DNA of 64,000 nucleotides from Agromyces protaetiae. Lineage in GTDB: Bacteria; Actinomycetota; Actinomycetes; Actinomycetales; Microbacteriaceae. Positions 48,035 through 62,531 of the stretch are shown piece by piece; the first letter of the stretch is position 1; each line of letters opens with the position of its first letter. The translations under genes were made by a program, and so were the position numbers. Below the pieces are notes generated by a model. It did not search any database, was not told where the DNA came from, and worked only from the letters and a program-made list of their open reading frames with translations. The stretch covers positions 3,906,001 to 3,970,000 of the forward strand of contig NZ_CP133018.1 in assembly GCF_030866785.1 (NCBI RefSeq), in the 5' to 3' direction.

Positions 48035-49054
48035 TCAGCCGAGCGCGCGCAGCCGCGGCGCGAGATCCCGTTCGAACAGCGCCATGAACCGGCGTTGATC
48101 GTTCCCCGGCGCGTGGAACACGAGATGGTTGAAGCCGGCGTCCACATACTTCGCGATCTCGGCGACCACCCGGTCGGGCTCGGTGCCGACGATCCAGCGC
48201 TTGGCGATCTGCTCGATCGGCAGCGCATCGGCCGCGCGCTCCATCTCGACCGGGTCGGTGATGTCGTGCTTCTGCTCCTTCGAGAGCGACAGCGGCGACC
48301 AGAAACGGGTGTTCTCGAGCGCGGCCTCCTCCGTCTCTTCGTACGAGAGCTTGATCTCGATCATGCGGTCGACGTCGGTGAGGGCGCGGCCGGATGCCTC
48401 GGCCCCTTCCTTCACCGCAGGCAGGAGCTGCTCGGTGTAGAGCTCCATGCCCTTGCCCGACGTGCAGATGAAGCCGTCGCCGGCGCGGCCCGCGTACTTC
48501 GCGACGGTCGGCCCTCCGGCCGCGATGTAGATCGGCACGCCACCCTCCGGCCGGTCGTAGATCGACGCGTCGTGCGTGGAGTAGTACTCGCCGTCGAAGC
48601 TCACACGGTCGCCCGACCAGAGTTCGCGCATGAGCCGGATCGACTCCCGCAAGCGACCGAACCGCTCGCGGAACTCAGGCCAGTTCTGCTCGCCCGCGCC
48701 GCGGAACCCCGTCGCGATCTCGTTGAGCGCTTCACCGGAGCCGACCCCGAGCATGATCCGGCCCGGGTACAGGCATCCGAGCGTCGCGAACGCCTGCGCG
48801 ATGACCGCGGGGTTGTAGCGGAACGTCGGCGTCATCACCGAGGTGCCGATCCGGATGGTCGAGGTGCGCTCGCCGACCGCCGCGATCCAGGCCAGGGAGA
48901 ACGGCGCATGCCCGCCCTGATGTCGCCAGGGCTGGAAATGGTCGCTCACCGCGACGGATTCGAAGCCGTGTGCCTCGGCGGCCACCGAGAGCTCGACGAG
49001 CTCCCGGGGAGCGAACTGCTCCGCGGAGGCCTTGTACCCGAGCGTGAGGGTCAT
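48035..49054 (-). CDS. fgd: F420-dependent glucose-6-phosphate dehydrogenase
   Basis: 339-residue luciferase-like (LLM) enzyme: glucose 6-phosphate + F420 to 6-phosphogluconolactone + F420H2. The sequence follows mycobacterial Fgd1 closely from [20 protein letters not shown] on. [19 protein letters not shown] holds the catalytic His and Trp, [10 protein letters not shown] the catalytic Glu, and [20 protein letters not shown] and [15 protein letters not shown] complete the match. It is the main source of reduced F420 in the cell. It overlaps fbiD by 4 bases and is the last gene of a deoR-LLM-fbiD-fgd unit. Confidence 0.95.
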
Positions 49055-49770
49055 GGTCGTACCTTTCTGTTGCGGGCGATGGTCAGCCTGTGGGAACGCA
49101 CACCCTCGGCGAGCGCCGTGACGGCTTCAGCCGTGCGTGACCCGACGCCGAGGCGCAGCGCCTGCTCGAGTGCGTCGAGTGTGTCGACGTCCGCGCGCAC
49201 ACCCGGGACGATCGCAGGGCGTTCCACCGTCACGAGATCGGTGAAGCCCGCGCCGAGGTGCCGCGCGGCGGATCCGTCGCCGAACGCCGGCGCGAACGGC
49301 TCCCCGGCGCGCGCGGTCGCGAGGGTCGTGCCCGTGCCGTCGGCATCGCGCACGAACGCGAGCGGATACCGCGCTGCGGCGGCGAGCGCCGAATCGAGCC
49401 CGTCGGCTCGTATCGCCGGGAGATCGCCGAGCATGACGGCGACGGCGATGTCGCTCCCGCTGCGGGCCGCGGCGATGCCGGTCTCGATCGCGGAGGCGAG
49501 CCCCGCGCCGGGTACCTCGTGCAGCACCTCGACGCCGTCGGCGAGGTGCGTATGGAGGTCGGCGTCGCCCGTCACGACGAGAATCCTGTCGATGCTCCGC
49601 GCGGCGCGCGCCGTCTCGATGGTGTCGAGGGCGAACGCTCGAGCCAGCGCGAGGCGCGCGGTCGGCGACACGGTCGGCGCGAGCCGCGACTTGGCCGTCG
49701 CGAGGGCCTTGACCGGGATCACCAGTGTCCAGCGGTTCATGCGTCGGCCGCTCCCACTCGCGGCCGTCAT
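49051..49770 (-). CDS. fbiD: Phosphoenolpyruvate/2-phospholactate guanylyltransferase
   Basis: 239-residue CofC/FbiD nucleotidyltransferase, which activates the phospholactate/phosphoenolpyruvate unit with GTP in F420 synthesis. [19 protein letters not shown] is the nucleotide-binding start. [21 protein letters not shown] (metal Asp) and [13 protein letters not shown] are family blocks. ATG 49770 overlaps the upstream LLM stop by 4 bases; an internal ATG at 49740 is the alternative. Having fbiD beside fgd couples cofactor synthesis to cofactor reduction. Confidence 0.9.
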
Positions 49771-50819
49771 GCCCTCAGCCTCGGAAGCACTTCACGGCCG
49801 AACACCTCGAGCCAGTCCGCCTGGTTGCGACTCGTGTTGTGCAGGTAGACGCGGTCGAAGCCGAGGTCGAGGTGGCGCTGGATCTCGGCCCGGTGACGGT
49901 CCGGGTCGGCCGAGACGACCATGCGGCCCTCGAAATCCGCGGGCCGCACCGTGCGCGCGAGCTGCGCGAACTCGAACGGTGAGCGGATGTCGCCGCGCCC
50001 CATGCGCATACCCGCGACCGGCCACTCGGCGATCGCGTTCCGCATCGCCTCTTCGTCGGTCGCCGCCCACGAGAGGTGGAGCTGCAGCACCTTCGGCATC
50101 GTGGCCGAGTCCCGACCGGCTTCACGGGCACCGTCGCGGAACCGCGTCAGCACCTCGTCGAGCCGATCGACGGGCCCGTTCGACGTGATCAGCCCGTCGG
50201 CCACCTTCCCCGCCCGCCGCGCCGTGACGGGGCCCGCCGTGGCGACCAGGATCTCCGGGGGCGTGACCGGCATCGTCCAGAGGCGTGCGGATTCGAGCCT
50301 GAAGGCCGGGCCGGCATGCCGCACATCCCGTCCGGCGAGGGAGGCCACGAAGAGCTTCCGGATCATGTGAATCGCTTCGAACATGCGGTTGATGCGCTCA
50401 GGCGCCTCAGGCCAGTAGCCGCCCACGACGTGCTCGTTGAGCGCCTCGCCTGAGCCGATACCGAGCCAGTGACGGCCCGGGTACATGGCGGCGAGCGTCG
50501 CGCTGGCCTGGGCGACGACGGCGGGGTGGGTACGAAAGGTCGGCGTCGCGGCACCCGGCCCGAAGTCGCCCTGCGTGCGTGCACCCAGCGCGCCGAGCAC
50601 GCTCCAGACGTGCGCGGACTGTCCATGCTGCGGCAGCCACGGCTGGAAATGATCGGTCGCCATGACCCCGGAGAACCCGTGCTGCTCGGCGAGCTCGGCG
50701 AGCGCGACCGCCTCTGACGGGGTGAACTGCTCGAGCATCGCGGAGTACCCGACCCGCACCGGCTCCCCCGCCCGCCCGCCGGGCACCGCGGAGCCGAGGG
50801 CTGGGAGCCGCTCGGTCAC
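49767..50819 (-). CDS. F420-dependent LLM-class oxidoreductase, Fgd-like
   Basis: 350-residue LLM protein of the F420-dependent G6PDH family. After a ~20-residue extension, VRVGYSAMLEQFTPSEAVAL and MATDHFQPWLPQHGQSA parallel Fgd, and [20 protein letters not shown] keeps the Glu motif. The HGGHAPF and phosphate-binding residues of Fgd are altered, so glucose 6-phosphate is unlikely; a related hydroxy-compound dehydrogenase is more probable. GTG 50819 overlaps the DeoR stop in GTGA. It makes an F420 block with fbiD and fgd. Confidence 0.85.
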   Translation of the reverse strand: MTERLPALGSAVPGGRAGEPVRVGYSAMLEQFTPSEAVALAELAEQHGFSGVMATDHFQPWLPQHGQSAHVWSVLGALGARTQGDFGPGAATPTFRTHPAVVAQASATLAAMYPGRHWLGIGSGEALNEHVVGGYWPEAPERINRMFEAIHMIRKLFVASLAGRDVRHAGPAFRLESARLWTMPVTPPEILVATAGPVTARRAGKVADGLITSNGPVDRLDEVLTRFRDGAREAGRDSATMPKVLQLHLSWAATDEEAMRNAIAEWPVAGMRMGRGDIRSPFEFAQLARTVRPADFEGRMVVSADPDRHRAEIQRHLDLGFDRVYLHNTSRNQADWLEVFGREVLPRLRA

Positions 50820-51658
50820 TCGGACCCCGCCTCGTCCACCCCGGAATCGGCTCGCGCGCGCACACCGTGCCCCTTCGCGCCCGCCGGTCGGGCGAACGTG
50901 ATCTCGAGCTTCGCCGCCTCGAGCTCGCTCCGGGCGGCGGTCCCCAAGCGGTCGTCGGTGATCACCTGCTCGAGCATGGCGAGCGGCGCGACGTGGTAGC
51001 GCTCGCTGACCCCGTACTTCGAGCTGCCCGCCACCAGGACGCAGCGCGCGGCCGACTCGACCGCCGCGATCTTGACCGCGACCTTGTCCGCCGACGTGGT
51101 GGATACGCCTCGCCGCAGGTCCCACGCCCCGGTGCTCAAGAAGCAGAGGTCGGTGTTGATCCGTCTCGCCGTGGACGCGGCGAACAGGCCGGCGCTGGAG
51201 CCGCTCGCGGGGTCGATCTCGCCGCCCGTGTGGATCGTACGCACACCGGGGTCGCCCATCAGCGCCACGGCCGTCGAGAAGTCCGAGGTGACCACGGTGA
51301 GTCGCGACCGGCCGCGGAGGTTCCTCGCGATCGCCTCGCACGTCGTCCCGGCATCGAGATAGATCGCCATGCCGTCCTCGATCAGGTCGGCGGCGGCGGC
51401 CGCGATGGCCCACTTCTCCTCGGTCTCGAGGATCGCCCGCTCACCACGGGCCTCCGGCGGTCTCCGCCCAGAGGCCAGCCTCGCGCCGCCGCTCACCGCG
51501 GATGCGACTCCCGCACGCTCCAGCTCGGCGAGGTCGCGTCGGACGGTGATCGCGGAGACGCCGAGCTTCACCGCCACATCGCGAGTGATCACGACGCCCT
51601 CCGAGTGCAGGATCTCCTCCAGGACGCGTCGGCGTTGCTCGGGAATCAGCGTGGACAT
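50816..51658 (-). CDS. DeoR/GlpR-family regulator
   Basis: 280-residue sugar regulator. The N-terminal winged helix is RRRVLEEILHSEGVVITRDV with LGVSAITVRRDLAELERAGV. The C-terminal ISOCOT-like sensor has YLDAGTTCEAIARNL (the D-x-G-T-T phosphate-binding motif) and LFLSTGAWD-type strand. It normally binds a sugar phosphate. It diverges from KDPG aldolase by 40 bases and heads the F420 unit, so it could couple sugar-phosphate levels to fgd and eda. Confidence 0.88.
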   Translation of the reverse strand: MSTLIPEQRRRVLEEILHSEGVVITRDVAVKLGVSAITVRRDLAELERAGVASAVSGGARLASGRRPPEARGERAILETEEKWAIAAAAADLIEDGMAIYLDAGTTCEAIARNLRGRSRLTVVTSDFSTAVALMGDPGVRTIHTGGEIDPASGSSAGLFAASTARRINTDLCFLSTGAWDLRRGVSTTSADKVAVKIAAVESAARCVLVAGSSKYGVSERYHVAPLAMLEQVITDDRLGTAARSELEAAKLEITFARPAGAKGHGVRARADSGVDEAGSE

Positions 51659-51698
51659 ACCCCCACGCTAGATCATTTTTGAACTAAACTGTGCATTT
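51659..51698. promoter_or_regulatory. Compact divergent promoter, deoR versus eda
   Basis: Only 40 bases separate the divergent starts. The segment ATCATTTTTGAACTAAACTG is strongly A/T-rich. TAAACT (51685-51690) could be an eda -10 placing the transcript start within a few bases of the ATG, and no ribosome-binding site precedes that ATG, so eda may be leaderless. A DeoR site is expected here but no clean repeat is seen. Confidence 0.45.
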
Positions 51699-52346
51699 AT
51701 GTTCACCAAACTGGAACGCCTGAAGACCATCGACGACACCGGGGTCGTCCTCATCGTCCGCCTCGATGACCCGGAGGAGGCGTATTCGGTCGCCGAGGCC
51801 GCCATCGAGGGCGGCATCCGCGCCCTCGAGATCACATACTCGGTCCCGGGCGCGCTCGGCCTGATCGAGCGGCTCGCATCCCGCCACCGTCATGAGGGCG
51901 TCGTGATCGGCGCTGGGACCGTGCTCGACGGCCAGGCGGCCTTCGCGGCGATCCAGGCCGGGGCCGAGCTCCTGGTCAGCCCGCAGCTGAACCCCGAGAT
52001 GCTCGCGACCGCGCAGCGGTACCAGGCGGTGAGCATGAGCGGCGCGTTCACGCCGACGGAGATCGTCGACTCGGTGACCGCAGGCGCGGACATCGTGAAG
52101 CTGTTCCCGGCCGAGTTCGTCGGTCCGGCGTACGTGAAGACCGTGCTCGCGCCCCTCGCCGGCGTCCCCATCGCGCCGGCCGGCGGGGTCACCGAGGCGA
52201 ACGTCGCGGAGTGGTTCGAGGCGGGCGTGTGCTCGGTCGGGGTCGGGAGCGCCATCACGAAGGCCGCTCGCGGCACCGGCGACTACACCCGCGTCGTCGA
52301 TGCAGCGCGCGGGTTCCTCGCGGCGGTCGCCCAAGCGCGCGCCTGA
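51699..52346 (+). CDS. eda: KDPG/KHG aldolase
   Basis: 215-residue class I aldolase that splits 2-keto-3-deoxy-6-phosphogluconate into pyruvate and glyceraldehyde 3-phosphate. ALEITYSVPGAL carries the catalytic Glu, VVIGAGTVLDGQAAFAAIQA is the central barrel block, and ADIVKLFPAEFVG holds the Schiff-base Lys. PIAPAGGVTEANVAEWF is the C-terminal phosphate site. Lacking Edd nearby, it could serve an Entner-Doudoroff route fed by Fgd, or a hexuronate-type route. It is probably co-transcribed with the P-loop gene 17 bases on. Confidence 0.9.
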   Translation: MFTKLERLKTIDDTGVVLIVRLDDPEEAYSVAEAAIEGGIRALEITYSVPGALGLIERLASRHRHEGVVIGAGTVLDGQAAFAAIQAGAELLVSPQLNPEMLATAQRYQAVSMSGAFTPTEIVDSVTAGADIVKLFPAEFVGPAYVKTVLAPLAGVPIAPAGGVTEANVAEWFEAGVCSVGVGSAITKAARGTGDYTRVVDAARGFLAAVAQARA

Positions 52347-52362
52347 TCGGCGGGATGCGATC

Positions 52363-52953
52363 ATGGAGCGCATGCGCCCGACGGCGATCATCTTCATCGG
52401 CACCGCCGGCTCGGGGAAGTCGAGCGTCAGCAAGATGGCGGCGCGCGAGCTCCGCGCGGCATACCTCGACAAAGACACCATGGTCACCCCGCTCACCGAG
52501 TTGGTGCTGCGCGAGCGCGGCGAGGATCCGCAGCAACGGGAGAGCAGCGCCTACTACCGTGAAGCCGTCTTCCCGGCCGAGTACACCGCGCTCATGCGCA
52601 CCGCGGCCGACAACCTTCGCCTCGGGATCCCGGTCGTGATCGACGCCCCCTTCTTCGCGTTTCTCGGGGACGCCTCATACCTGCGCCGCGCGAAGGCCGA
52701 GTCCGGCTGGCCGGAGAGCGACGTCTTCGTCGTGCGCGTCGTCGCGGCCGACCACATCGTGCGGGAACGCCTGGTCTCCCGCGGACTGTCGCGCGATCGC
52801 TGGAAGCTCGATCACTGGGACGAGTACCTGGCCATGATGCAGGGGGTGCGATGCACCTGGGACGGCGCGGTGCACCTCGAGCTGGACAACAGCGGCCCGC
52901 AGCCCGATCTCGCCGTGCTCGAGGAGGCGATCCGGACGGCGGGCCGCGGATGA
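52363..52953 (+). CDS. P-loop kinase-like protein
   Basis: 196-residue P-loop NTPase. AIIFIGTAGSGKSSVSKMAA is Walker A near the N-terminus. YLDKDTMVTPL resembles the acceptor-binding loop of small-molecule kinases such as gluconokinase. VVIDAPFFAFLGDASYL is Walker B-like, and RLVSRGLSRDRWKLDHWDEY is an Arg-rich lid. Position after eda suggests a sugar-acid kinase, but the sequence does not settle the substrate; a zeta-toxin-like kinase is an alternative. ATG 52363 has GGCGGGA upstream. It converges on the next gene with one base between stops. Confidence 0.68.
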   Translation: MERMRPTAIIFIGTAGSGKSSVSKMAARELRAAYLDKDTMVTPLTELVLRERGEDPQQRESSAYYREAVFPAEYTALMRTAADNLRLGIPVVIDAPFFAFLGDASYLRRAKAESGWPESDVFVVRVVAADHIVRERLVSRGLSRDRWKLDHWDEYLAMMQGVRCTWDGAVHLELDNSGPQPDLAVLEEAIRTAGRG

Positions 52954-52954
52954 C

Positions 52955-53938
52955 TCACCGCACCGCGTGGCTCGACCACGCCCTGCCGGGTTGCTCGGCC
53001 GTCGGCAGGCCGGCGACCTCGAGGATGCGGTCGAGCAGCTCCTGAGTCCGCGCAGCCTCGCGGCCGGACGTGAGCGGCTGGGTTCGGTCACGGACGCACT
53101 CGAGGAAGTGATCGACCGAGGCCCGGAAGCCGAAGGTCGAGGTGGCCGTCGCCCATCCGAAGGCTTCGGCGCGCATCTCGCGCGTGACGGTCTCTCCCGA
53201 CCGCGTCACGGCGATGCGGTCGGGCGCTTCGATGTGCACCGACGTGGCCGCGCCGTACGCGTCGAGCGATTCCTCCCACCCGCCCGCGTTCCGCGCCGCC
53301 ATGAGCACGCCGGTGTGGCCGTTGTCGAACCGGACCAGCGCCGCAGTGCCCTCCTCCTGCCAGGGGTCGTCTCCGGCGGCATGCGCCGCGACCTGCTCGA
53401 CCTCGCCGCCGCAGTACCAGCGCATCAAATCGACCATGTGGATCGAGTTCTCGAACGTCGCCCGGTACTCCGAGCCGTTGCGATTCTTCTGCGCGACACA
53501 GAAGGTCGACCCGGCGTCACCGAACGCGGCGCGCCCCTCCTGGTACGTCGGCGCGAAGCGACGATTGAACCCCACCATCAGCAGACGCCCCGTCTCGTCG
53601 GCCAGGTCCGCGAGCCGCACGGCGTCGGCGGTCGCGGTGGCCAGCGGTTTCTCGCAGAACACGTCGACCCCGGCGGTGAGCGCCGACTCCACCCCGTGCA
53701 CGTGCTCGGATCGTGGCGTCAGGACGAACACGGCGTCCAGCCGCTCGGCGTCGAGCATCGCCTCGACCGTGTGGTACGCCGCACGGAATCCCCATCGCTG
53801 CACGAGATCCGACGGGTCGGGCCTCCGCGAGACGAGCGCGGTCAGCTCGACATCCTCACGTCCCGCCAACGAGGGCAGCTGCGCGATCGCGGCGATGTTG
53901 CCGGCCCCGACCACTCCCACCCGCAACCTGTCGGTCAT
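52955..53938 (-). CDS. Gfo/Idh/MocA-family oxidoreductase A
   Basis: 327-residue NAD(P)-dependent sugar dehydrogenase. RVGVVGAGNIAAIAQLPSLA is the Rossmann start. FCEKPLATATADAVRLADLA carries the E-K-P catalytic Lys, and ENSIHMVDLMRWYCGG has the His/Asp pair of the active site. Last gene of the LacI-controlled operon, overlapping the VOC gene by 4 bases. It is clearly similar to the second Gfo/Idh/MocA protein (55579-56538), sharing EYRATLENxIHMVDLxRWxCG, so the two may act on related substrates. Reversible oxidation of a sugar hydroxyl, often C3, is the expected chemistry. Confidence 0.85.
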   Translation of the reverse strand: MTDRLRVGVVGAGNIAAIAQLPSLAGREDVELTALVSRRPDPSDLVQRWGFRAAYHTVEAMLDAERLDAVFVLTPRSEHVHGVESALTAGVDVFCEKPLATATADAVRLADLADETGRLLMVGFNRRFAPTYQEGRAAFGDAGSTFCVAQKNRNGSEYRATFENSIHMVDLMRWYCGGEVEQVAAHAAGDDPWQEEGTAALVRFDNGHTGVLMAARNAGGWEESLDAYGAATSVHIEAPDRIAVTRSGETVTREMRAEAFGWATATSTFGFRASVDHFLECVRDRTQPLTSGREAARTQELLDRILEVAGLPTAEQPGRAWSSHAVR

Positions 53939-54483
53939 CGATCCTTCCAATCTTCGGGACCGACGAAGCGAGGCGGGTCCGCCACACGCGATCGGTCGAC
54001 GAGTTCGATCATGAGCCCCCACGGGGCGACGAGATAGGTCCATCGGTTGCCGGCCACGCGTGGGCTGTCGCCGGCCACCTGCTTCACCCCACCGAGGATG
54101 CGGACACCGGGGACCCGCTCCAGATGCGCGACCGCGGCGTCGACGTCGTCGACGACGAACGCGAGGTGGTGCCCGCCGGCATCCCCATGCCGGGGCCGAT
54201 CCGTTCTCAGCTCGGCGCCGCGCCATTCGAACACCTCGATGTTCAGGTTGGGCGGCATCCGGAGCATCGCCAGGGTGAGCGAGGCATCCGCCGGCATCTC
54301 GAAGTTCTCAGGAATGAAGCCCGCGTCCGGTCCGCGGGTCGACCGGTAGAGCTCCTCGGCACCGAGCACCTCGACGAAGAAGGCGACCGCCTCTTCGAGG
54401 TCCGGGACCGTCACCCCCACATGGTCGACGTGGCGCAGGCCGGGAACCGGCCCGCGCCCGCCGACCGGGCTCGATGCGTTCAC
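53935..54483 (-). CDS. VOC-family dioxygenase/lyase-like protein
   Basis: 182-residue vicinal-oxygen-chelate protein. HVDHVGVTVPDLEEAVAFFV starts module 1 with a metal His, and GDAGGHHLAFVVDDVDAAVA starts module 2. YLVAPWGLMIELVD ends it with the metal Glu. The pattern H...H...E fits methylmalonyl-CoA epimerase, lyase or dioxygenase types. GTG 54483 overlaps the LLM stop by 4 bases, and its stop overlaps the next gene. Being inserted between an F420-type enzyme and a sugar dehydrogenase is unusual. Confidence 0.83.
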   Translation of the reverse strand: MNASSPVGGRGPVPGLRHVDHVGVTVPDLEEAVAFFVEVLGAEELYRSTRGPDAGFIPENFEMPADASLTLAMLRMPPNLNIEVFEWRGAELRTDRPRHGDAGGHHLAFVVDDVDAAVAHLERVPGVRILGGVKQVAGDSPRVAGNRWTYLVAPWGLMIELVDRSRVADPPRFVGPEDWKDR

Positions 54484-55496
54484 AGCACCGGCCGCGACAC
54501 CTGCATCGCCTTGAGCTTGGGCAGCAGCTCGCTGCCCCACAGCTCGAGCTGCGCGGGGTCGTCGGTGTAGGGGTGGATGATGAGGTGTTCGACGCCGACG
54601 TCGACCCTGGCCTGGCACTGCGCGACCACTTCATCCAGCGTCCCGAACATGTAGGAGCGTTCGAGGTGCTCCGTGTCGCGGCCGTCACCCAGGACCTCGG
54701 CGGCCATCTGATGCTGGATCTTCCTGGCGGCCGCAGGGTCGTCCTCCTCGGTGAGGTGCAGCCACTGCCCGTGGGCGATGACCATGTCGTCCGGGTTCCT
54801 GCCCTCCTCGACGAGCGCCTCCGCGACCAGCTTCCAGTCGTCGGCGACCTGCTCGGGCTGCGCGCTCGGCCGAGAGAACCATCCGTCGGAGTTCACGATG
54901 CGCCGTTTCACCGCGGGGTTCAGCTCGGGCTTCTCCACCGACTGGTCACCGGAGACCTGGCTGCCGCCGCCGACCCACACGGGAAGCGGCACGGGAGAGG
55001 GCTCGATGTGCACGTCGTTCAGCGAGTAGAACTTGCCCTCGTACGTCAGCTCCTCGCCGGACATGAGCCGGCGCGTGATGTCGAGCACCTCGTCCGTGCG
55101 CCGGCCGCGCTCCTTGGGAAGGGTGCCCATGGCGTACATCTCCGGGTGGTACCAGCCGGTGCCTGCGCCCAGGATGAAACGGTCGTTCGACATCTGCTGC
55201 AGGCTCGAGAGCGTCTTGGCGAGCAGCACGGGGTGGCGGAGGGGCAGCAGCAGCACGCCGGTGCCGAGCGTGACCTTCTTGGTCACGGCGGCCGCGAAGG
55301 CCAGGGCGGTGAGCGGCTCGATCCAGGTGTATGCGTACATGTTGCGGGCACGCAGCATGTGGTCCGTCACCCAGATCGAGTCGAATCCGAGCTCCTCGGC
55401 GCGGATGCACCATTGGCGAAGCCGTTCCGCGTGGTCGATTCCGTCCTTCGCGTAGCCGAAGCTCGGCAGATAGATTCCGACTTTCAGGTTGGTCAT
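54480..55496 (-). CDS. LLM-class (probably F420-dependent) oxidoreductase
   Basis: 338-residue luciferase-like TIM barrel. KVGIYLPSFGYAKDGIDHAE, WVTDHMLRARNMYAYTWIEP, VTLGTGVLLLPLRHPVLLAK and DRFILGAGTGWYHPEMYAMG are standard LLM blocks, and LPVWVGGGSQ is the cofactor phosphate loop. Since fgd and fbiD are present 4 kb away, F420 is the more likely cofactor than FMN. It overlaps the VOC gene and follows a Gfo/Idh/MocA gene by 82 bases. Reduction or oxidation of a pathway intermediate is inferred. Confidence 0.83.
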   Translation of the reverse strand: MTNLKVGIYLPSFGYAKDGIDHAERLRQWCIRAEELGFDSIWVTDHMLRARNMYAYTWIEPLTALAFAAAVTKKVTLGTGVLLLPLRHPVLLAKTLSSLQQMSNDRFILGAGTGWYHPEMYAMGTLPKERGRRTDEVLDITRRLMSGEELTYEGKFYSLNDVHIEPSPVPLPVWVGGGSQVSGDQSVEKPELNPAVKRRIVNSDGWFSRPSAQPEQVADDWKLVAEALVEEGRNPDDMVIAHGQWLHLTEEDDPAAARKIQHQMAAEVLGDGRDTEHLERSYMFGTLDEVVAQCQARVDVGVEHLIIHPYTDDPAQLELWGSELLPKLKAMQVSRPVL

Positions 55497-55578
55497 GTGC
55501 GTGTCCTCGTGTTCGTAGGGTTGGTTGGTGATTTCGGTTCGCGCTCGGGGAGCGGATCTGGCGCGACGCCGTTCGGCC

Positions 55579-56538
55579 TCAGGTGGCGTCCCGGATCGGG
55601 AGTCCGGCCGCGGCGAGCACGCGTTCCATCAGCTCTTGCGATCGGAACGCTTCGCGTGCGCCGGTGAGGGGTGCCTCGCGTGCGCGGACGCAGTGCAGGA
55701 AATGACGGACGGCGGGCGCGAAGCCGGCGGTCTCCGTGAGGTCCGCCCACCCTGCCGATCGCGGGCGCATGTGCAGTTGGGTGCGCTCTCCGCCACGGCT
55801 GATCTCGAGCTCGTCGGGCGCGACGACCCGGACGCTCGTCCCACCGCCGTACGCTTCGAGGCGCTCGTCCCACTCTCCCGCCGTGCGTGCCGCGGCGAAC
55901 AGGGCGACGGCTCCTGAGTCGAAGCGGATCAGGGCCGCGGCGCCGTCTTCGCGGAAGGGGTCGTCGGCGCGCGCTGCTCCGGTCACCTCCACGGCCTCGC
56001 CGCAGAACCACCGGAGCAGGTCCACCATATGGATGCCGTTCTCGAGCGTTGCTCGGTACTCGGTTCCGACCCGGTGCTTCTGCCCCACGACGAAGTCGGG
56101 TCGGCGTTCGGCGAACTCGGCGCGCGCCCGGACGTAGAGTTCGGCGAAGCGCCGGTTCAGGCCGACCATGAGCTCACCCGGGGCACGTTCGGCGGCGTCG
56201 ACCATCGCTTGCGCATCATCGAGGCTCGCTGCCAGGGGCTTCTCGCAGAACACGTCGAGACCCGCGGCCAGACCTCGTTCGACGAACGATCGGTGCGCCG
56301 ACTTCGGGGTGAGCACGAACAGCGCGTCCAACCGGGCGTCGGCGATCATGGCGTCGACGTCGGGGTAGGCGCGTTCGATCGGCCAGCGGCGCACGGTCTC
56401 GTGCGACTCGTCGGGCGATGCGGTGACCACCCCTGCGATCGTCACCGTCGGGTCGGCGCTGAGCACCGGCAGCTGGGCGAGGCGGGCGATCACGCCCGCC
56501 CCGACCAGCCCGACTCGAAGCGGCCGCGGTTCAGTCAT
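55579..56538 (-). CDS. Gfo/Idh/MocA-family oxidoreductase B
   Basis: 319-residue NAD(P)-dependent dehydrogenase. LRVGLVGAGVIARLAQLPVL is the Rossmann start, DVFCEKPLAASLDDAQAMVD has the E-K-P motif, and ENGIHMVDLLRWFCGEAVEV the active-site His/Asp. It overlaps the ABC ATPase gene by 8 bases. It aligns closely with the protein at 52955-53938. Having two in one operon suggests oxidation followed by reduction at the same or a neighbouring sugar carbon, as in known 3-keto-glycoside pathways. Confidence 0.86.
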   Translation of the reverse strand: MTEPRPLRVGLVGAGVIARLAQLPVLSADPTVTIAGVVTASPDESHETVRRWPIERAYPDVDAMIADARLDALFVLTPKSAHRSFVERGLAAGLDVFCEKPLAASLDDAQAMVDAAERAPGELMVGLNRRFAELYVRARAEFAERRPDFVVGQKHRVGTEYRATLENGIHMVDLLRWFCGEAVEVTGAARADDPFREDGAAALIRFDSGAVALFAAARTAGEWDERLEAYGGGTSVRVVAPDELEISRGGERTQLHMRPRSAGWADLTETAGFAPAVRHFLHCVRAREAPLTGAREAFRSQELMERVLAAAGLPIRDAT

Positions 56539-57343
56539 GCAGCACGCCGAGCTGTTTGAAGATGTCGTAGATCTGTCCCGAGTACTCGGCGAACGCCTCC
56601 TCGTCCCCCATCTGGACCGGACGCGGCCGGGGCAGGTCGATGACGATCTCCTCGACGATCCGTCCGGGCGAGGGGCCCATCACGATCACCCGATCGGACA
56701 GACCCACCGCCTCCTCGACGCTGTGCGTGATGAACAGCACCGATTTCGGTCGCTCGAGCCACAGCGCCTCGAGGTCGACCCGCATCTGGGTGCGCGTCAG
56801 TGCGTCGAGGGCGCCGAAGGGTTCGTCCATGAGCAGCACCGACGGCTCGTGGACGAGCGCGCGGGCGATCGACACGCGCTGCCGCATGCCGCCGGACAGC
56901 TGGTTGGGGTATCGGTTCTTCGCCTTGTCGACGCCGAGCTGCGCCATGAGCTCGTCGGTGCGGGCCTCCTGCTGGTCACGCGAGAGGCCGCGCACCTTTC
57001 CCTGGAGGAGGATGTTGTCCCGCGCGGTCCGGAAGTCGAGCAGGAGGTCGTCCTGGAAGACGATTCCGACGTCGGTCAGCGCGTGGGCCAACGGCTCACC
57101 GTTGATCAGCACCTGGCCGCTCGTCGGCTGCAGGAGCCCTGCGACCATGAGCATGAGGGTGCTCTTCCCGCAGCCACTCGGCCCGACCACGCTGACGAAC
57201 TCCCCGGGCGCGATGGTGAAGTCCGTCGGCTGCAGTGCGACGTTCACGCCGTCCTTCGTGTGGAACTCCCTCGAGAGCTGCCGACCGGCGATCTCGAGGC
57301 CCGTCACGGTGTTCGTGGCGGCCGGGCGGTCCTGGCTCAGCAT
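56531..57343 (-). CDS. NitT/TauT-type ABC transporter ATPase
   Basis: 270-residue ATPase. VVGPSGCGKSTLMLMVAGL is Walker A, VFQDDLLLDFRTARDNI the Q-loop, NQLSGGMRQRVSIARALVHE the signature, and VLLMDEPFGALDALTR Walker B. Lack of a TOBE domain and the RTQMRVDLEALW segment fit the SsuB/TauB/ThiZ group. The ATG at 57343 overlaps the binding-protein stop by 7 bases; the longer upstream frame reads that gene in another phase. Drives the permease at 58464-59291. Confidence 0.91.
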   Translation of the reverse strand: MLSQDRPAATNTVTGLEIAGRQLSREFHTKDGVNVALQPTDFTIAPGEFVSVVGPSGCGKSTLMLMVAGLLQPTSGQVLINGEPLAHALTDVGIVFQDDLLLDFRTARDNILLQGKVRGLSRDQQEARTDELMAQLGVDKAKNRYPNQLSGGMRQRVSIARALVHEPSVLLMDEPFGALDALTRTQMRVDLEALWLERPKSVLFITHSVEEAVGLSDRVIVMGPSPGRIVEEIVIDLPRPRPVQMGDEEAFAEYSGQIYDIFKQLGVLHD

Positions 57344-58395
57344 GCTGGCAGCTCCTCGGGCAGGTAGTCGTTCGTGTAGTAGAACTCGATGGGCTCGTTC
57401 GTCGGAAGGTCGAGGTACTCGACGAGGAGGTCGTAGGTCTCCTGCCAGGTCTCCGGCGCGACCTTGCCGAGACCTTCCGACCCGGCGGAGCACAGGAGTT
57501 CGATGTCGACGGCGAGCTGCTTCTCGATGGCCTCGGTGTCCGCGCCCTGGGGGAACTGCTCAGCGACGATGGCGGACGCTTCAGCGGGGTCGTTGCGCGC
57601 GTCGTCCCAGCCGCGAAGGGATGCCTCGACGAACGCCGAGACGAGCTCCGGGTTCTCCTCGGCATAGCTGCGCGCCGTGATCATCGACAGACCCACGGTG
57701 GGCACGCCTGCGTCGCGGTACATGATCTCGTTGATGTCGGCGCCCTGCTCACGGAGCTGGACGCCCTGGCTGTCTGCACCGGCGGTGATGGCATCGACAC
57801 TGCCCTGCAGCAATGACCCGACGAGCGCCGACGGGTCGATGTTCACGACCTCGACGCTCGCCTTGTCCACGCCGTTCGCCGCGAGGAGCGCGTCGAACAG
57901 GCTCGACTGCGCCGTGCCCGGCTGCACCCCGACGCTCTTGCCCGCGAGATCTGCGACCTCTTCAATGCCTTGATCGGCGAGCGACATGGTCGAGAAGCCG
58001 TTGGTCTGGAGGATCTGGCCGATGTTGACGAGGTCGCCGCCCTGCGAGGCGACGGTCATCGCCGACGGACCGTCGGCGAAGCCGAACTCCGAGTTGCCCT
58101 GGGCGACGAGCGACGCGGTGGACCCGGAACCCTGACCCTCCTGAATGGTGACGTTGAGGCCCGCCTCCTCGTAGTACCCCTTCTCCTGCGCGACCATGAA
58201 ACCCGAGTTCGGCCCGCCCGCCAGGAAGTTGAGGGTGAGCGTGACATCGGTCAGATCAGCGGGTGCGGCCGAAGGGTCGTCCTCCGGTGCCGCGGGGGAG
58301 CCGGCACATGCGGCCAGGAGCAGTGCTGAGGCGCCGGCGATCAGTGTCGCGCCGATTCGAGTTCGACGCGTCGTTGCGTGCAGTGTGCGAGACAT
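57337..58395 (-). CDS. NMT1/THI5-like ABC substrate-binding lipoprotein
   Basis: 352-residue binding protein. The signal peptide ends SALLLAACAGS with lipidated Cys. TLTLNFLAGGPNSGFMVAQE, KGYYEEAGLNVTIQEGQGSG and DLAGKSVGVQPGTAQSSLFD are the SsuA/THI5 signatures. This group binds sulfonates, nitrate, hydroxymethylpyrimidine, aromatic acids and similar flat or anionic ligands, not usually free sugars. It sits between permease and ATPase genes. An aromatic or acidic ligand, possibly attached to a sugar, would reconcile this with the dehydrogenases downstream. Confidence 0.88.
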   Translation of the reverse strand: MSRTLHATTRRTRIGATLIAGASALLLAACAGSPAAPEDDPSAAPADLTDVTLTLNFLAGGPNSGFMVAQEKGYYEEAGLNVTIQEGQGSGSTASLVAQGNSEFGFADGPSAMTVASQGGDLVNIGQILQTNGFSTMSLADQGIEEVADLAGKSVGVQPGTAQSSLFDALLAANGVDKASVEVVNIDPSALVGSLLQGSVDAITAGADSQGVQLREQGADINEIMYRDAGVPTVGLSMITARSYAEENPELVSAFVEASLRGWDDARNDPAEASAIVAEQFPQGADTEAIEKQLAVDIELLCSAGSEGLGKVAPETWQETYDLLVEYLDLPTNEPIEFYYTNDYLPEELPAC

Positions 58396-58463
58396 TACTC
58401 AACCTTTCGTGGATGTGGGTGCGTGCGTGGTGGTGCGCGTACGGGATGGCATGGGGCGACCGG

Positions 58464-59291
58464 TCAATGTTTGCGCTGCCACGGGGTGACCAGCCGTTCG
58501 GCGAACTCGACCGCATAGGCGAAGACGAGGCCCATGATGCTCAGGGCGATGAGCACCGCGAACATGAGCGCGGTGTCGAGGTTCGCCGAGGCGCGGAGCA
58601 GCACGTAGCCGAGTCCGGCGCTGGACCCGACGAACTCCGCGACGATCGCGCCGGTGACGGCGAGCACGATGGCGACCTTCAGACCGGAGAAGATGAAGGG
58701 CAGCGCGGCGGGCATCCGGACGTAGGAGAAGGTCTGCATCCGCGTCGCGCCCATCGACTTGGTGATGTAGAGGAGCCGTGGGTCGAGGGCTTTGAACCCC
58801 GTGAGCGCGTCAACGAGGATCGGGAAGAAGCACAGCAGGAAGGTCAGGAGCACCTTCGGCAACATCCCGAAGCCGAACCACACGATGAACAGGGGGGCGA
58901 CAGCGATCTTCGGGATGGTCTGCAGGACCACGATCAGCGGGTACAGCGTGATCTCGACGATCGGGACCGAGGCGATCAGGTAGGCCAGCGGGATGCTGAT
59001 CACGGCGGCGAGCAGGAAGCCGAGCAACACCTCCGAGCCCGTCACCAGGGAGGCGTCCCAGAGGGTGGGGAGCTCCTCGATGAACGACTCGAACACGATG
59101 GTCGGCGCCGGCAGGATGTACGGCGGGATGTTGAAGGCAACGACAATCAGTTGCCAGAGCGCGATACTCACCACGAAGGCGGCGGTGGGCAGCGTGTACC
59201 GGACCGCTGGGCTCAGGCGCTTCGCCTCGCGCGAGGGCTTCGGCGGCAGTTCCGCGGTGTCAGGTGCGGCGGAGGTCGGAGTCGTGGTCAT
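58464..59291 (-). CDS. NitT/TauT-type ABC transporter permease
   Basis: 275-residue permease with about six helices after a ~35-residue Thr/Pro-rich N-terminus. ALWQLIVVAFNIPPYILPAP is typical of SsuC/TauC, and the EAA loop region reads LYITKSMGATRMQTFSYVRM followed by PAALPFIFSGLKVA. FVGSSAGLGYVLLRASAN is the last conserved loop. It precedes the binding protein by 68 bases and follows the isomerase by 26, in the same unit. Confidence 0.9.
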   Translation of the reverse strand: MTTTPTSAAPDTAELPPKPSREAKRLSPAVRYTLPTAAFVVSIALWQLIVVAFNIPPYILPAPTIVFESFIEELPTLWDASLVTGSEVLLGFLLAAVISIPLAYLIASVPIVEITLYPLIVVLQTIPKIAVAPLFIVWFGFGMLPKVLLTFLLCFFPILVDALTGFKALDPRLLYITKSMGATRMQTFSYVRMPAALPFIFSGLKVAIVLAVTGAIVAEFVGSSAGLGYVLLRASANLDTALMFAVLIALSIMGLVFAYAVEFAERLVTPWQRKH

Positions 59292-59317
59292 CTTCTCGTC
59301 TTCCTAGATGGAGTGAT

Positions 59318-60235
59318 TCAGCGGGCTTCGGCGAGTGCGAGGTATTCGCGCAGCTTGTCGGCGCCGCGTGCGAAACCCTCCAGGGGATCCGGCAGGTCCT
59401 GGGGATGCCACCGGTACTCGTACTCGAGGGAGATGACGCCGTCGTACCCCTCGGCGAGGAGCGCAGCGACGATGGCCCCCCAGTCCATCTCGCCGTCACC
59501 GATGACGCGTGAGCGCACCGCACGCTCTTCCCCCGTGACGTTCGCCACGGCGGAGGCGGAGAATGGACGGTCGGGATCGACGAACGTGAGGTCCTTGGCG
59601 TGGACGTGCGCGATGTGTCCGCGCTGCAGCTCGATCGCCTGCGCGAAGTCCTCGTTGTGGGTGAAGGTGAGGTTGGCCTGGTCGTACAGGATCTCCACCG
59701 CGGGACTCTGTACGGCCTCGATCAGCTGAATGGTCTCCTGCGCGGACACGGTCATCGTGTTGAAGTGGTTCTCGACGGCGAGCACGACGCCGTGCTCGCC
59801 CGCGACCGGCGCGAGCTCGCCCAGCGAGCGAACGAGCCGCTCCCACAGCTGGGGCCGCTGGTCGAGCTGGTCCGGACTGTAGGCCCCCGCGTACACGCGG
59901 ACGACTCCGGCGCCGAGGGCGGCGGCATCCTCGATGCATCGCGCGAACCGCTCGACATCACGGGTGCGTTCGCTCTCGTCGAGGGAGTTGATGCCCGTCA
60001 TGTACGGGGTGAGCCCGACGACGGGAAGCCCGGTCTCTGCGCTCGCGCGGCGGATGTCGGCCAGCAGGCCGGCGTTGTCGGTCTCCGGGATCGCGCTCAG
60101 GTAGCCGTCCTGCCAGATCAGTTCGGCGCCATCGAGTCCGGCCTGCGCGAACAGCCCGATCGCGTCGACCGCGGAGTACTGCGGCGTGCCGAGGGTGTGA
60201 CCGGCGAGGCGGAGAGGACCAGAACGAGTCGTCAT
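59318..60235 (-). CDS. Sugar phosphate isomerase/epimerase-family protein
   Basis: 305-residue AP-endonuclease-2-fold TIM barrel. GLDGAELIWQDGYLSAIPET, PVVGLTPYMTGINSLDES and GVVLAVENHFNTMTVSAQET (metal Glu and His) are typical, as are Asp in LYDQANLTFT, His in HIAHVHAKDLTF, and the final Glu in GVISLEYEYRW. The metal set Glu-Asp-His-Glu is complete. Family members include inosose dehydratase, tagatose epimerases and C-glycoside-cleaving subunits. The ATG at 60235 is preferred (GAAAG seven bases upstream) over those at 60241 and 60265. First gene of the LacI-controlled operon. Confidence 0.82.
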   Translation of the reverse strand: MTTRSGPLRLAGHTLGTPQYSAVDAIGLFAQAGLDGAELIWQDGYLSAIPETDNAGLLADIRRASAETGLPVVGLTPYMTGINSLDESERTRDVERFARCIEDAAALGAGVVRVYAGAYSPDQLDQRPQLWERLVRSLGELAPVAGEHGVVLAVENHFNTMTVSAQETIQLIEAVQSPAVEILYDQANLTFTHNEDFAQAIELQRGHIAHVHAKDLTFVDPDRPFSASAVANVTGEERAVRSRVIGDGEMDWGAIVAALLAEGYDGVISLEYEYRWHPQDLPDPLEGFARGADKLREYLALAEAR

Positions 60236-60248
60236 TGACATACTTTCT

Positions 60249-60273
60249 GCAATCGTTGTTAGCAATCGTTTGC
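60249..60273. promoter_or_regulatory. Candidate LacI-family operators before the isomerase operon
   Basis: GCAATCGTTTGC (60262-60273) is a 12-base near-palindrome with the central CG expected of LacI-family sites. GCAATCGTTGTT (60249-60260), 13 bases away, repeats its left half. The same core appears as CAATCGATTG at 62280-62289 before the lacI unit. Regulation of the operon and autoregulation of lacI are inferred. Confidence 0.65.
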
Positions 60274-60342
60274 AAGATTGTACGCAGCGGTTCGATCAGA
60301 GATCAATAGGGGCGTCGAGAATTCTCTGAACGCGAGTCCGAC

Positions 60343-61335
60343 CTACTTCAGCCGTCGCGTCGATCGCCGGATCAGGAGTTCCGGGACGAGCAGTTCGTGC
60401 TCGATCACGCCGGTGGAGACGAACCGCTCGGCGACCTCGATCGCGCGGCGGCCGAGCTCGGCGAGGGGCTGGGCCACGGTCGTGATCGACGGGTTGAAGG
60501 TCGCGCCGATCGCCACGCCGTCGAAGCCGGTGACGGAAAGGTCCTCGGGGATTCGAACGCCGCGCTCCGACACCTGCGACATGAAACCGAACGCCGCCAT
60601 GTCGTTCGAGGCGATCACGGCCGTCGGACGCGACGGGAGGGCCAAGAACTGCTCTGCCGCGGCTCGACCGGCTTCCGGCCCGTATCCTCCGTTGATGACG
60701 CTCGGCGCGAGTCCGTGCGCCGTCGCGAGGATGCGGAACTCGTCGAGGCGCTCCTGGCCGGAGTAGGTGCCGACCGTTCCGGTGAGGTAGGCGATCTCGC
60801 GGTGGCCGAGTTCGAGCAGATGCTCGAACGACAGCCGCACGCCGAGCCGGTTGTCGATGAACACGGTCGGCACGTCCAGCTCAGGAGGCACGCGATCGAT
60901 CACGATCAGCCGCTTCGCGAGCGCCGCCTGTCCGAGCGCGTCGACGTCGAGCTTGGTCGAGGGCGCGACGATCGCGAACGGCGAGAACAACGCATCCATC
61001 GACGCGAGGTAGGCACTGGTCTGCCCCGGGACGCCCTCGGTGACGCACAACACCAGTTGATAGCCGCGCGGACCGGCGACCGCGGCGATCGCCTTGGCCA
61101 GCTCTCCGTAGAACGGGTTGGTGATGTCGGGCACGATGAGCGGAACGAGATTGCTCGCCTTGCGACGCAGGGCTTGCCCGAGCGGGTTCACGCGGTACCC
61201 GAGCTCCTCGGCGATCCGGAGAATCCGCTCGCGCGTCTTGACATTGACCGCCTCCGGGCGCGAGAGCGCGCGGGAGACGGTGGAGCTGTGCACGCCGGCC
61301 GCCTTGGCGACGTCGTGGAGGCTCAACTCGCCCAT
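60343..61335 (-). CDS. LacI-family transcriptional regulator
   Basis: 330-residue repressor. SLHDVAKAAGVHSSTVSRAL is the N-terminal helix-turn-helix, and RVNPLGQALRRKASNLVPLI the hinge. The periplasmic-binding-like sensor carries PDITNPFYGELAKAI and STGPTAVIASNDMAA-type motifs near its end. It overlaps the upstream dehydrogenase gene by 13 bases and sits before the isomerase operon. Candidate sites CAATCG(A/T)TTG lie at both unit starts. The inducer is presumably a sugar from the pathway. Confidence 0.9.
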   Translation of the reverse strand: MGELSLHDVAKAAGVHSSTVSRALSRPEAVNVKTRERILRIAEELGYRVNPLGQALRRKASNLVPLIVPDITNPFYGELAKAIAAVAGPRGYQLVLCVTEGVPGQTSAYLASMDALFSPFAIVAPSTKLDVDALGQAALAKRLIVIDRVPPELDVPTVFIDNRLGVRLSFEHLLELGHREIAYLTGTVGTYSGQERLDEFRILATAHGLAPSVINGGYGPEAGRAAAEQFLALPSRPTAVIASNDMAAFGFMSQVSERGVRIPEDLSVTGFDGVAIGATFNPSITTVAQPLAELGRRAIEVAERFVSTGVIEHELLVPELLIRRSTRRLK

Positions 61336-62258
61336 GCCCGGCCCCGATCACGATCGCCGTGCATATCCCGATACGCGAGGTCGACCACCTCCATCGCTGC
61401 GACGAGATCGTCGATCTGCGGCAACGCCGCGAACCCTGCGTCGAACGACTCCGCGACCTCCGCAACGAAATCCCGGAACAACAGGTCACTGTCCACGTCG
61501 ATCCGCGCTCGCTCGATGGTGCCGTCGGCGCGGGTCAGCGACACGTCGCCCCCGGCCCCGATGCTGACGAACCCGTCCTCTCCCGCCAGAGTCATACTCA
61601 CATGACGTTTCGCCGCCGCAGACGGAAACACGTACCCGAGCTCCACGGTTGCCGAGCGTCCGTCCTCGGTGGTCAGAATCATGACCGCATGGTCCTCGAT
61701 GTCCAGGTGGTGCAGCGCGTGGTGGCCGACGGCGCGGACTGACGCGATCGGTGCACCGAACAGCTCGGTCGCGACATCCGCGAAGTGCGCGCCCAGATTG
61801 ACGAGGACTCCGCCGCCGGAGTCCGGGTCGAGCATCCATGCGCACTCCGCATCGACGTACCGTTGCGGCGGGCCGACGAGGTAGGTGACGGTGAGATACG
61901 TGGGCCTCGCGATCGACCGCAAGACGCTCATGAACGGGGCTGCGCGGTGTACCAGCGGTACCGCCACCGGCACGCCGTGCCGATGGGCCAGGTCGCGGAG
62001 CGACCGCAGGTCGGCCAGGTTCAACGCCCCCGGCTTTTCCAGCACGACCGGGATGCCCCGCTCGATGAAGTGTGCGGCCTGCGCGGCCATCCGTTCGTGC
62101 GCGGTCATCACGAACGCGACATCGATACCGGAGTCGGCCCCTGCCGACCCCCTTTCCTCGGCGACCTCGACGAGGTCGAACCGGGTTCGCAGTGCGTCCA
62201 TGTAGAGGGGCGCGTGCCAGTGCGCGGCACCGACGAGCACGGTCCTGGGGCGCTTCAC
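61323..62258 (-). CDS. Gfo/Idh/MocA-like oxidoreductase C
   Basis: About 311 residues, a divergent Gfo/Idh/MocA protein. RTVLVGAAHWHAPLYMDALR replaces the usual GxGxxG start. VVLEKPGALNLADLRSLRDL keeps E-K-P, and VNLGAHFADVATELFGAPIA supplies the His/Asp pair. I chose the GTG at 62258 (AGGAAGG eight bases upstream); GTG 62267 and TTG 62282 are in frame too. It is translationally coupled to lacI (13-base overlap). It is much less like the other two dehydrogenases and may be the first oxidising step or a different substrate class. Confidence 0.78.
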   Translation of the reverse strand: MKRPRTVLVGAAHWHAPLYMDALRTRFDLVEVAEERGSAGADSGIDVAFVMTAHERMAAQAAHFIERGIPVVLEKPGALNLADLRSLRDLAHRHGVPVAVPLVHRAAPFMSVLRSIARPTYLTVTYLVGPPQRYVDAECAWMLDPDSGGGVLVNLGAHFADVATELFGAPIASVRAVGHHALHHLDIEDHAVMILTTEDGRSATVELGYVFPSAAAKRHVSMTLAGEDGFVSIGAGGDVSLTRADGTIERARIDVDSDLLFRDFVAEVAESFDAGFAALPQIDDLVAAMEVVDLAYRDMHGDRDRGRAWAS

Positions 62259-62279
62259 CGCTGCCACCTTCCTCCCCGC

Positions 62280-62289
62280 CAATCGATTG
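62280..62289. promoter_or_regulatory. Candidate LacI-family operator before the dehydrogenase-lacI unit
   Basis: CAATCGATTG is a perfect 10-base palindrome about 20 bases upstream of the dehydrogenase start. It matches the core of the sites at 60249-60273. It would let LacI repress its own unit. Confidence 0.6.
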
Positions 62290-62383
62290 CGGTTAGGGAA
62301 CAGTATGGACGATCGACGCGCTGACGCTCATTCGCAGATCTCCGTCTCCGCGGCGACGGCCGCGATCACACCGTGCCGGTGAG

Positions 62384-62479
62384 ATGAACGGAGTCCGCGC
62401 GTCACGCACGGAGTACCTGTTCCAGCCCGAGCTCGTGGTCCGGGAGTCCACCGGCCCCGCGCCCGCACGCGCGAGATGA
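62384..62479 (+). pseudogene. Remnant of a LacI-family regulator C-terminus
   Basis: An open frame ending at TGA 62477-62479 encodes TEYLFQPELVVRESTGPAPA. Its core, PELVVRESTGPAP, is the standard C-terminal end of LacI-family regulators. Only about 30 codons remain, and there is no ribosome-binding site or helix-turn-helix. It is on the opposite strand to the intact lacI and so is a separate, lost regulator. This is the only recognisable content of the 306-base gap 62259-62564 apart from the operator at 62280 and a repeat before the next gene. Confidence 0.6.
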
Positions 62480-62531
62480 GTCGAGCTGCGTCGTGGGCGA
62501 TCGCGGCACACCACGTGCGCGCCCGTCGCGT

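Follow-up and report, generated by a model that had tools for sequence, protein, structure and literature searches.

A conserved import and oxidation module in Agromyces protaetiae with a predicted Entner-Doudoroff-like ending and a probable F420-linked step

Pairs of Gfo/Idh/MocA oxidoreductases and AP_endonuc_2-type proteins act in the levoglucosan and C-glycoside routes by oxidation of the sugar at C3 and elimination (PMC10066097; PMC8563793), and in the C-glycosidases a beta subunit helps form the active site (PMC8563793). For F420, a 2021 review states that a systematic understanding of its physiological role is lacking, and counts Chloroflexi and Proteobacteria among the producers in which its purpose is an unanswered question (PMC8498797). 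Here I describe a locus that joins these themes, in a 64,000-nucleotide stretch of Agromyces protaetiae (RefSeq assembly GCF_030866785.1, contig NZ_CP133018.1, positions 3,906,001 to 3,970,000; hereafter the window). It encodes an ABC importer, three Gfo/Idh/MocA proteins (GfoA, GfoB and GfoC), an AP_endonuc_2 protein (ISO), an LLM-class oxidoreductase, a VOC protein and a LacI-family regulator, and beside these a small kinase-like protein, a KDPG/KHG-type aldolase and a DeoR-family regulator. Judged from sequence, these 13 proteins (hereafter the module) may catabolise a small polyhydroxylated ring compound (sugar- or cyclitol-like) in an Entner-Doudoroff-like manner, probably using F420 in one step, a reading that I hold with about even confidence.

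The ten genes of the operon run on the minus strand from 62267 to 52955, in the order GfoA, LacI, ISO, permease, binding protein, ATPase, GfoB, LLM, VOC and GfoC. All were found in place as listed in an earlier note on this DNA, which had described a leftward set from ISO to GfoC headed by a Gfo-lacI unit, and every one of the ten proteins matches a Pfam family above its gathering cut-off. Five joins overlap (GfoA-LacI, binding protein-ATPase, ATPase-GfoB, LLM-VOC and VOC-GfoC), and the gaps elsewhere are 107 bp (LacI-ISO), 26 bp (ISO-permease), 68 bp (permease-binding protein) and 82 bp (GfoB-LLM), the last being the widest within the ISO-to-GfoC unit. The note's grouping of import with Gfo and LLM oxidation stands, but its cluster boundary at 52955 does not, as the kinase, aldolase and DeoR genes at 52953-50816 are conserved with the operon; these three, left out of its gene set, point to a sugar-acid end route.

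Four loci were compared, namely the window, Actinotalea caeni (L001), a Frankiales metagenome-assembled genome (L023, which includes L002) and genome G859 (L022, from the same taxonomic order as the Frankiales genome). A. caeni possesses the identical ten genes in the identical order, followed by the kinase, the aldolase and DeoR as in the window. The other two loci are arranged differently (kinase, aldolase, DeoR, permease, binding protein, ATPase, GfoB, an extra epimerase-type protein, LLM, VOC, ISO, GfoC), and keep eight of the ten operon genes, with ISO relocated and without GfoA and LacI. Eleven genes are therefore common to all four loci, and GfoA-LacI is present in two. As the order is the same in A. 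caeni, and eight genes persist in two loci of another taxonomic order, this arrangement is not due to chance; the conserved co-occurrence of the eight-gene set that the earlier note had asked for is seen in every locus, with ISO at a different place in two. Across the four loci, no protein of the module is better conserved than the LLM (84-88% identity to the window), which is followed by the ATPase (80-81%), GfoC (72-78%) and VOC (70%), with GfoB (62-63%), ISO (54-62%), the kinase (43-56%) and DeoR (45-50%) at the lower end. The extra protein of the reordered loci, located between GfoB and the LLM and absent from the window and A. caeni loci, is a NAD-dependent epimerase/dehydratase (L022 5804-6703, PF01370 128.6 bits; L002 7851-8942, 126.9 bits).

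The aldolase matches PF01081 well above the cut-off (126.9 versus 27.8 bits), and retains in all four loci a KLFP motif, presumably that of the catalytic Schiff-base lysine. Since this KDPG-type aldolase, the small kinase and DeoR are conserved beside the operon, the final steps probably lead through a 2-keto-3-deoxy acid to pyruvate and a triose. The E, D, H, E motif positions of ISO, which I take to be metal ligands, are invariant in the four loci, as are the H..H..E positions of the VOC protein, to which I also assign a metal role. GfoB and GfoC are paralogues with 52% identity, and both keep the EKP motif. The conserved motifs of GfoB/GfoC, ISO, VOC and the aldolase lead me to propose a breakdown of the Entner-Doudoroff kind, in which one oxidation is probably linked to F420.

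In this proposed route, a ThiY-like ABC importer would take up the compound, GfoB and GfoC would oxidise or reduce ring hydroxyls using NAD(P), and ISO would isomerise, epimerise or eliminate from the resulting keto-sugar. The LLM, in the manner of FGD on glucose 6-phosphate, would use F420 to oxidise the carbon of a hemiacetal or alcohol and so give F420H2, and the VOC protein would isomerise or open the product. The kinase would, perhaps at this stage, phosphorylate the 2-keto-3-deoxy acid, and the aldolase would cleave the phosphorylated acid to pyruvate and a triose, with LacI and DeoR each keeping one half repressed as long as no metabolite of the pathway is present. No clear enzyme for the dehydration or ring-opening step was found among the module proteins.

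Table 1. Coordinates of the module and of neighbouring features in the window.
Feature	Position	Strand	Basis and remarks
Operator-like box ahead of GfoA-lacI	62279..62290	.	1 mismatch to GCAATCGATTGC; counterpart in A. caeni L001 2099-2110
GfoA, Gfo/Idh/MocA oxidoreductase, shortened Rossmann part	61323..62267	-	PF22725 61.7 bits, PF01408 31.2 bits
LacI-family regulator	60343..61335	-	PF00356 53.5 bits, PF13377 116.8 bits; overlaps GfoA end
Sigma-70-like promoter, TTGATC-18-TACAAT	60277..60306	-	Consensus match only; in 107 bp LacI-ISO gap, just before operator region
Operator-like region ahead of ISO	60248..60273	.	GCAATCGTTTGC at 60262-60273; 20-mer GATTGCTAACAACGATTGCA at 60248-60267
ISO, AP_endonuc_2 / xylose-isomerase-like TIM barrel	59318..60235	-	Pfam 160.2 bits
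ABC permease, SaoP/TauC/SsuC-like	58464..59291	-	Pfam and NCBIfam scores; below all equivalog cut-offs
NMT1-type binding protein, ThiY/thiamin-binder branch	57337..58395	-	Pfam; structure model pLDDT 89.2
ABC ATPase	56531..57343	-	Pfam and NCBIfam scores
GfoB, Gfo/Idh/MocA oxidoreductase	55579..56538	-	Pfam; EKP motif
LLM-class oxidoreductase	54480..55496	-	TIGR03619 above cut-off; structure model pLDDT 91.8
VOC / glyoxalase-fold protein	53935..54483	-	Pfam; H..H..E positions conserved
GfoC, Gfo/Idh/MocA oxidoreductase	52955..53938	-	Pfam; 52% identical to GfoB
Small P-loop kinase-like protein	52366..52953	+	AAA_33 47.6 bits, CPT 25.7 bits; present in 4/4 loci
KDPG/KHG-type aldolase	51699..52346	+	TIGR01182 156.7 versus cut-off 156.05 (narrow); present in 4/4 loci
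DeoR-family regulator	50816..51658	-	Present in 4/4 loci
FGD, CofC and second FGD-like LLM	48035..50786	-	TIGR03554 631.5/420; TIGR03552 143/105; TIGR03557 263.6/210.4

The LLM passes the TIGR03619 model for F420-dependent LLM enzymes (192.5 bits, cut-off 166.9), and its best solved relative by profile is the F420-dependent Mer (1e-27). In a fold comparison of its structure model, FMN luciferases come out a little higher than F420 enzymes. It does not pass the FGD model TIGR03554 (56.2 versus 420 bits), and is 27% identical to the FGD encoded nearby. With the TIGR03619 cut-off passed and F420 genes in the host genome, the earlier assignment as an F420-type LLM is upheld at the level of models, and an F420-linked step in the module is probable.

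The host evidence comprises FbiA (310 versus 257.45 bits), CofC, four FGDs above 420 bits and F420-0 importer models over their cut-offs. FGD is over its cut-off in all four carrier genomes, versus 46 of 246 genomes of the class (the window's own included), and FbiA in three of the four carriers. The FGD, CofC and second LLM genes adjoin the module in the window, and do not lie within the stretches L001, L022 and L023. Models for FbiC stay below cut-off in the window's one-contig genome (CofH none, CofG 20.6 bits), i.e. no FO synthase was found in it. In five genomes no match to the FbiB C-terminal model exceeded its cut-off; since two of these five have a CofG-type gene over cut-off, the model is uninformative here. 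The presence of FbiA and an F420-0 importer without FO synthase suggests that this genome imports an F420 precursor; a literature search on the F420-0 importer surfaced only an antibiotic-resistance review.

Several further observations concern the F420 genes. FbiA adjoins a binding protein and a permease of the 'putative F420-0 ABC transporter' type (TIGR03868 476.6/392.4; TIGR03869 492.8/437.35) and an ATPase, at L005 9289-13672, corresponding to 3645289-3649672 of the window's genome (G000:C1). A CofG-type gene is over cut-off in 2 of the 24 congeners searched. The four proteins over the FGD cut-off in the window's genome (G000:C1 1073042, 3654636, 3954047 and 3997851) compare with one each in the four sampled congeners, and one of the four lies in the window, at 48035-49054, beside CofC.

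The earlier note had called the importer TauABC-like. This fits the permease and the ATPase loosely, all scores being under the equivalog cut-offs, but not the binding protein, which is nearer to ThiY and thiamin binders. Among solved structures it is most closely related to a thiamin binder and a formylaminopyrimidine binder, and the taurine and sulfonate binders are more distant from it than those of thiamin and pyrimidines; it scores 55.7 against a cut-off of 304.25 with the TauA/SsuA-type model TIGR01729, and 81.9 against 163.5 with TIGR01728. Cysteines C302 and C352 of this protein, kept without exception in an alignment of 51 binding proteins, are a possible disulfide pair. I considered a use of sulfonates or organosulfur compounds, in which a TauABC/SsuABC-type importer would feed an FMNH2-dependent LLM that cuts the C-S bond of a sulfosugar, with Gfo proteins and the aldolase processing the sugar. 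The TauA/SsuA scores just given and the absence of a flavin reductase among the 13 module proteins make it very unlikely, and the SsuD model is not among the LLM matches listed (25 of 33 families). Sulfonate-carrier relatives with desulfonation genes alongside, which had been named beforehand as evidence against the glycoside proposal of the earlier note, were likewise not what emerged, the nearest relatives being the thiamin and formylaminopyrimidine binders.

That proposal, the uptake and cleavage of an aromatic or acidic glycoside, implies that one Gfo protein oxidises the bound sugar at C3, ISO eliminates the aglycone, a second Gfo protein reduces the 3-keto-sugar, and the LLM acts on an aromatic aglycone. 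Besides the precedent of the levoglucosan and C-glycoside pairs, ISO is weakly similar to a 2-hydroxy-3-keto-glucal hydratase (8ro4, 26.1 bits), and GfoB to DgpA proteins (9m3d 48.8 bits, 7xr9 44.4 bits). However, a Pfam scan of the 13 module proteins revealed no glycosidase, no aromatic-ring enzyme and no C-glycosidase beta subunit. The levoglucosan model for LgdA (NF052479) scores only 47.6 with GfoC and 49.3 with GfoB versus a cut-off of 650, with GfoA not listed, and the Gfo proteins and ISO are also far below the inositol models. Glucose as a product would, moreover, not need a KDPG aldolase and a kinase. As the module lacks a C-glycosidase beta subunit, an enzyme of the levoglucosan type and any desulfonation gene, 'aromatic or acidic glycoside' is unsupported, and I regard this route as unlikely.

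The inositol models bear on another alternative, a cyclitol route in which the Gfo pair would oxidise ring hydroxyls, the VOC protein open the diketone and ISO epimerise the keto-acid, ahead of the kinase and aldolase. Inositol 2-dehydrogenase (TIGR04380) is indeed the nearest NCBIfam model of GfoB and GfoC (117.4 and 119.6 bits; GfoA 20.0), and IolE (TIGR04379) that of ISO (52.5 bits), and the Thermotoga inositol route reportedly ends in a kinase and a KDPG aldolase. All of these scores are nonetheless far under the cut-offs (355 and 290), the ring opening by VOC is a guess, and the LLM is left without a role; a cyclitol route of this kind is quite improbable.

Expression of the operon would fall under LacI, as the earlier note had it, given the LacI-type regulator and the near-palindromic predicted boxes that stand at both heads in two genomes, the window's and that of A. 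caeni. Like the box ahead of GfoA, that ahead of ISO (60262-60273) has a single mismatch to GCAATCGATTGC, and these are the only two sites with at most one mismatch in the window; at two mismatches there are 5 versus 2.87 by chance, which is not above chance. A. caeni has three such boxes, one ahead of GfoA and two ahead of ISO. The 20-mer GATTGCTAACAACGATTGCA ahead of ISO is identical in the two genomes, its zero expectation being after the fact, since it was picked because it is shared. Promoter-like pairs such as that in the LacI-ISO gap number 2 in 50800-62500, versus 0.7 expected. DeoR may control the other half.

GfoA is an accessory gene, 46% identical to its A. caeni counterpart and without a match in L022 and L023. 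Its start lies at 62267 or 62258; an alternative TTG at 62282 would fall within the operator-like box. It is missing a stretch of the Rossmann half that the A. caeni counterpart keeps. Instead of acting as an enzyme, GfoA may serve as a sensor or have decayed.

I then looked at how widely the module recurs. A scan of the genome collection with six exact peptides, which cannot count distant relatives, gave two loci. LLM relatives are rare among the sampled species genomes: at 1e-60 none was found in 36 congeners or in 23 other genomes of the order, and the window's own genome was the only one of 394 in the class sample at 1e-90, and of 299 in the family sample at 1e-80. In the order of genome G440, 2 of 249 genomes have one at 1e-80, one being G440 itself. 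Two of the 396 genomes sampled across the phylum have one at 1e-70, namely that of the window and another whose protein is 43% identical. Plasmid records contain no LLM relative at E 1e-60.

Sharing of contigs in metagenomes was assessed on the best 120 rows each of 825, 232 and 372 hits (LLM, binding protein and GfoB), with exactly equal size taken as the same contig, and contigs under 3 kb dropped (35, 38 and 28 of 120 rows). LLM rows were divided into close (P0001-P0086) and more distant ones at a point chosen after the identities were seen. Among the matches listed, 33 of the 66 close rows on contigs of at least 3 kb match a GfoB or binding protein relative in exact contig size, versus none of the 19 more distant rows, which is partly expected, as the partner lists end at 120 rows. 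LLM-Gfo pairs number 30 in these best rows, against a control mean of 0.41 and a maximum of 2 for 100 shifted lengths, with 10 LLM-binding protein and 19 binding protein-Gfo pairs. Both members are named Anaerolineae in one LLM-Gfo pair (P0081/P0327), and Chloroflexi in one LLM-binding protein pair (P0063/P0208). This supports, indirectly because it is drawn from matching sizes with the contigs themselves unread, a conserved linkage of the LLM with Gfo and binding proteins in metagenomes, Chloroflexota included.

The module is a conserved combination of familiar families; literature searches, which surfaced a general F420 paper (PMC6279831) and one that names TIGR03619, found no description of it, a weak absence as subscription journals were thinly covered. 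If a dedicated F420-type enzyme serves a conserved module for import and breakdown, F420 would have a concrete role in the use of a carbon source. The recurring gene set would at the same time acquire a function; in one source, several GfoB relatives are named 'virulence factor' and several LLM relatives 'alkanesulfonate monooxygenase', labels that find no support in this analysis. A broader and rather doubtful suggestion is that this is a widespread, undescribed Entner-Doudoroff-like route of Actinomycetota and Chloroflexota, in which an F420-dependent LLM would oxidise a sugar-type substrate, and breakdown would charge F420H2 directly in a host seemingly importing its F420 precursor.

Each of the known systems resembles the module in part. 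The TauABC/SsuABC and ThiXYZ importers likewise consist of an NMT1 binding protein, one permease and one ATPase, but the module is below all of their equivalog cut-offs, and the closest relatives of its binding protein are ThiY and a thiamin binder. The levoglucosan pathway (LgdA-LgdB1/B2-LgdC with an ABC importer) also brings together two Gfo/Idh/MocA proteins, AP_endonuc_2 proteins, an importer and sometimes LacI (PMC10066097), whereas the module has no LgdA by score, and adds the LLM, VOC, kinase, KDPG aldolase and NMT1-type binding protein. C-glycoside deglycosylation (DgpABC, CarABC) shares with it a Gfo oxidoreductase (DgpA) and a TIM-barrel isomerase-like protein, but not the beta subunit. 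With FGD and FSD, the LLM has in common its fold, the TDH/SDH motif, F420-using hosts (with four true FGDs in the window's genome) and a sugar context, and is set apart from them by its low identity and FGD-model score. The usual KDG kinase is of the PfkB type, whereas the kinase-like protein of the module is of the AAA_33 type, and the module contains no known sugar-acid dehydratase or lactonase; as in the Entner-Doudoroff sugar-acid routes, however, a kinase-like protein and a KDPG/KHG-type aldolase stand beside sugar-type dehydrogenases.

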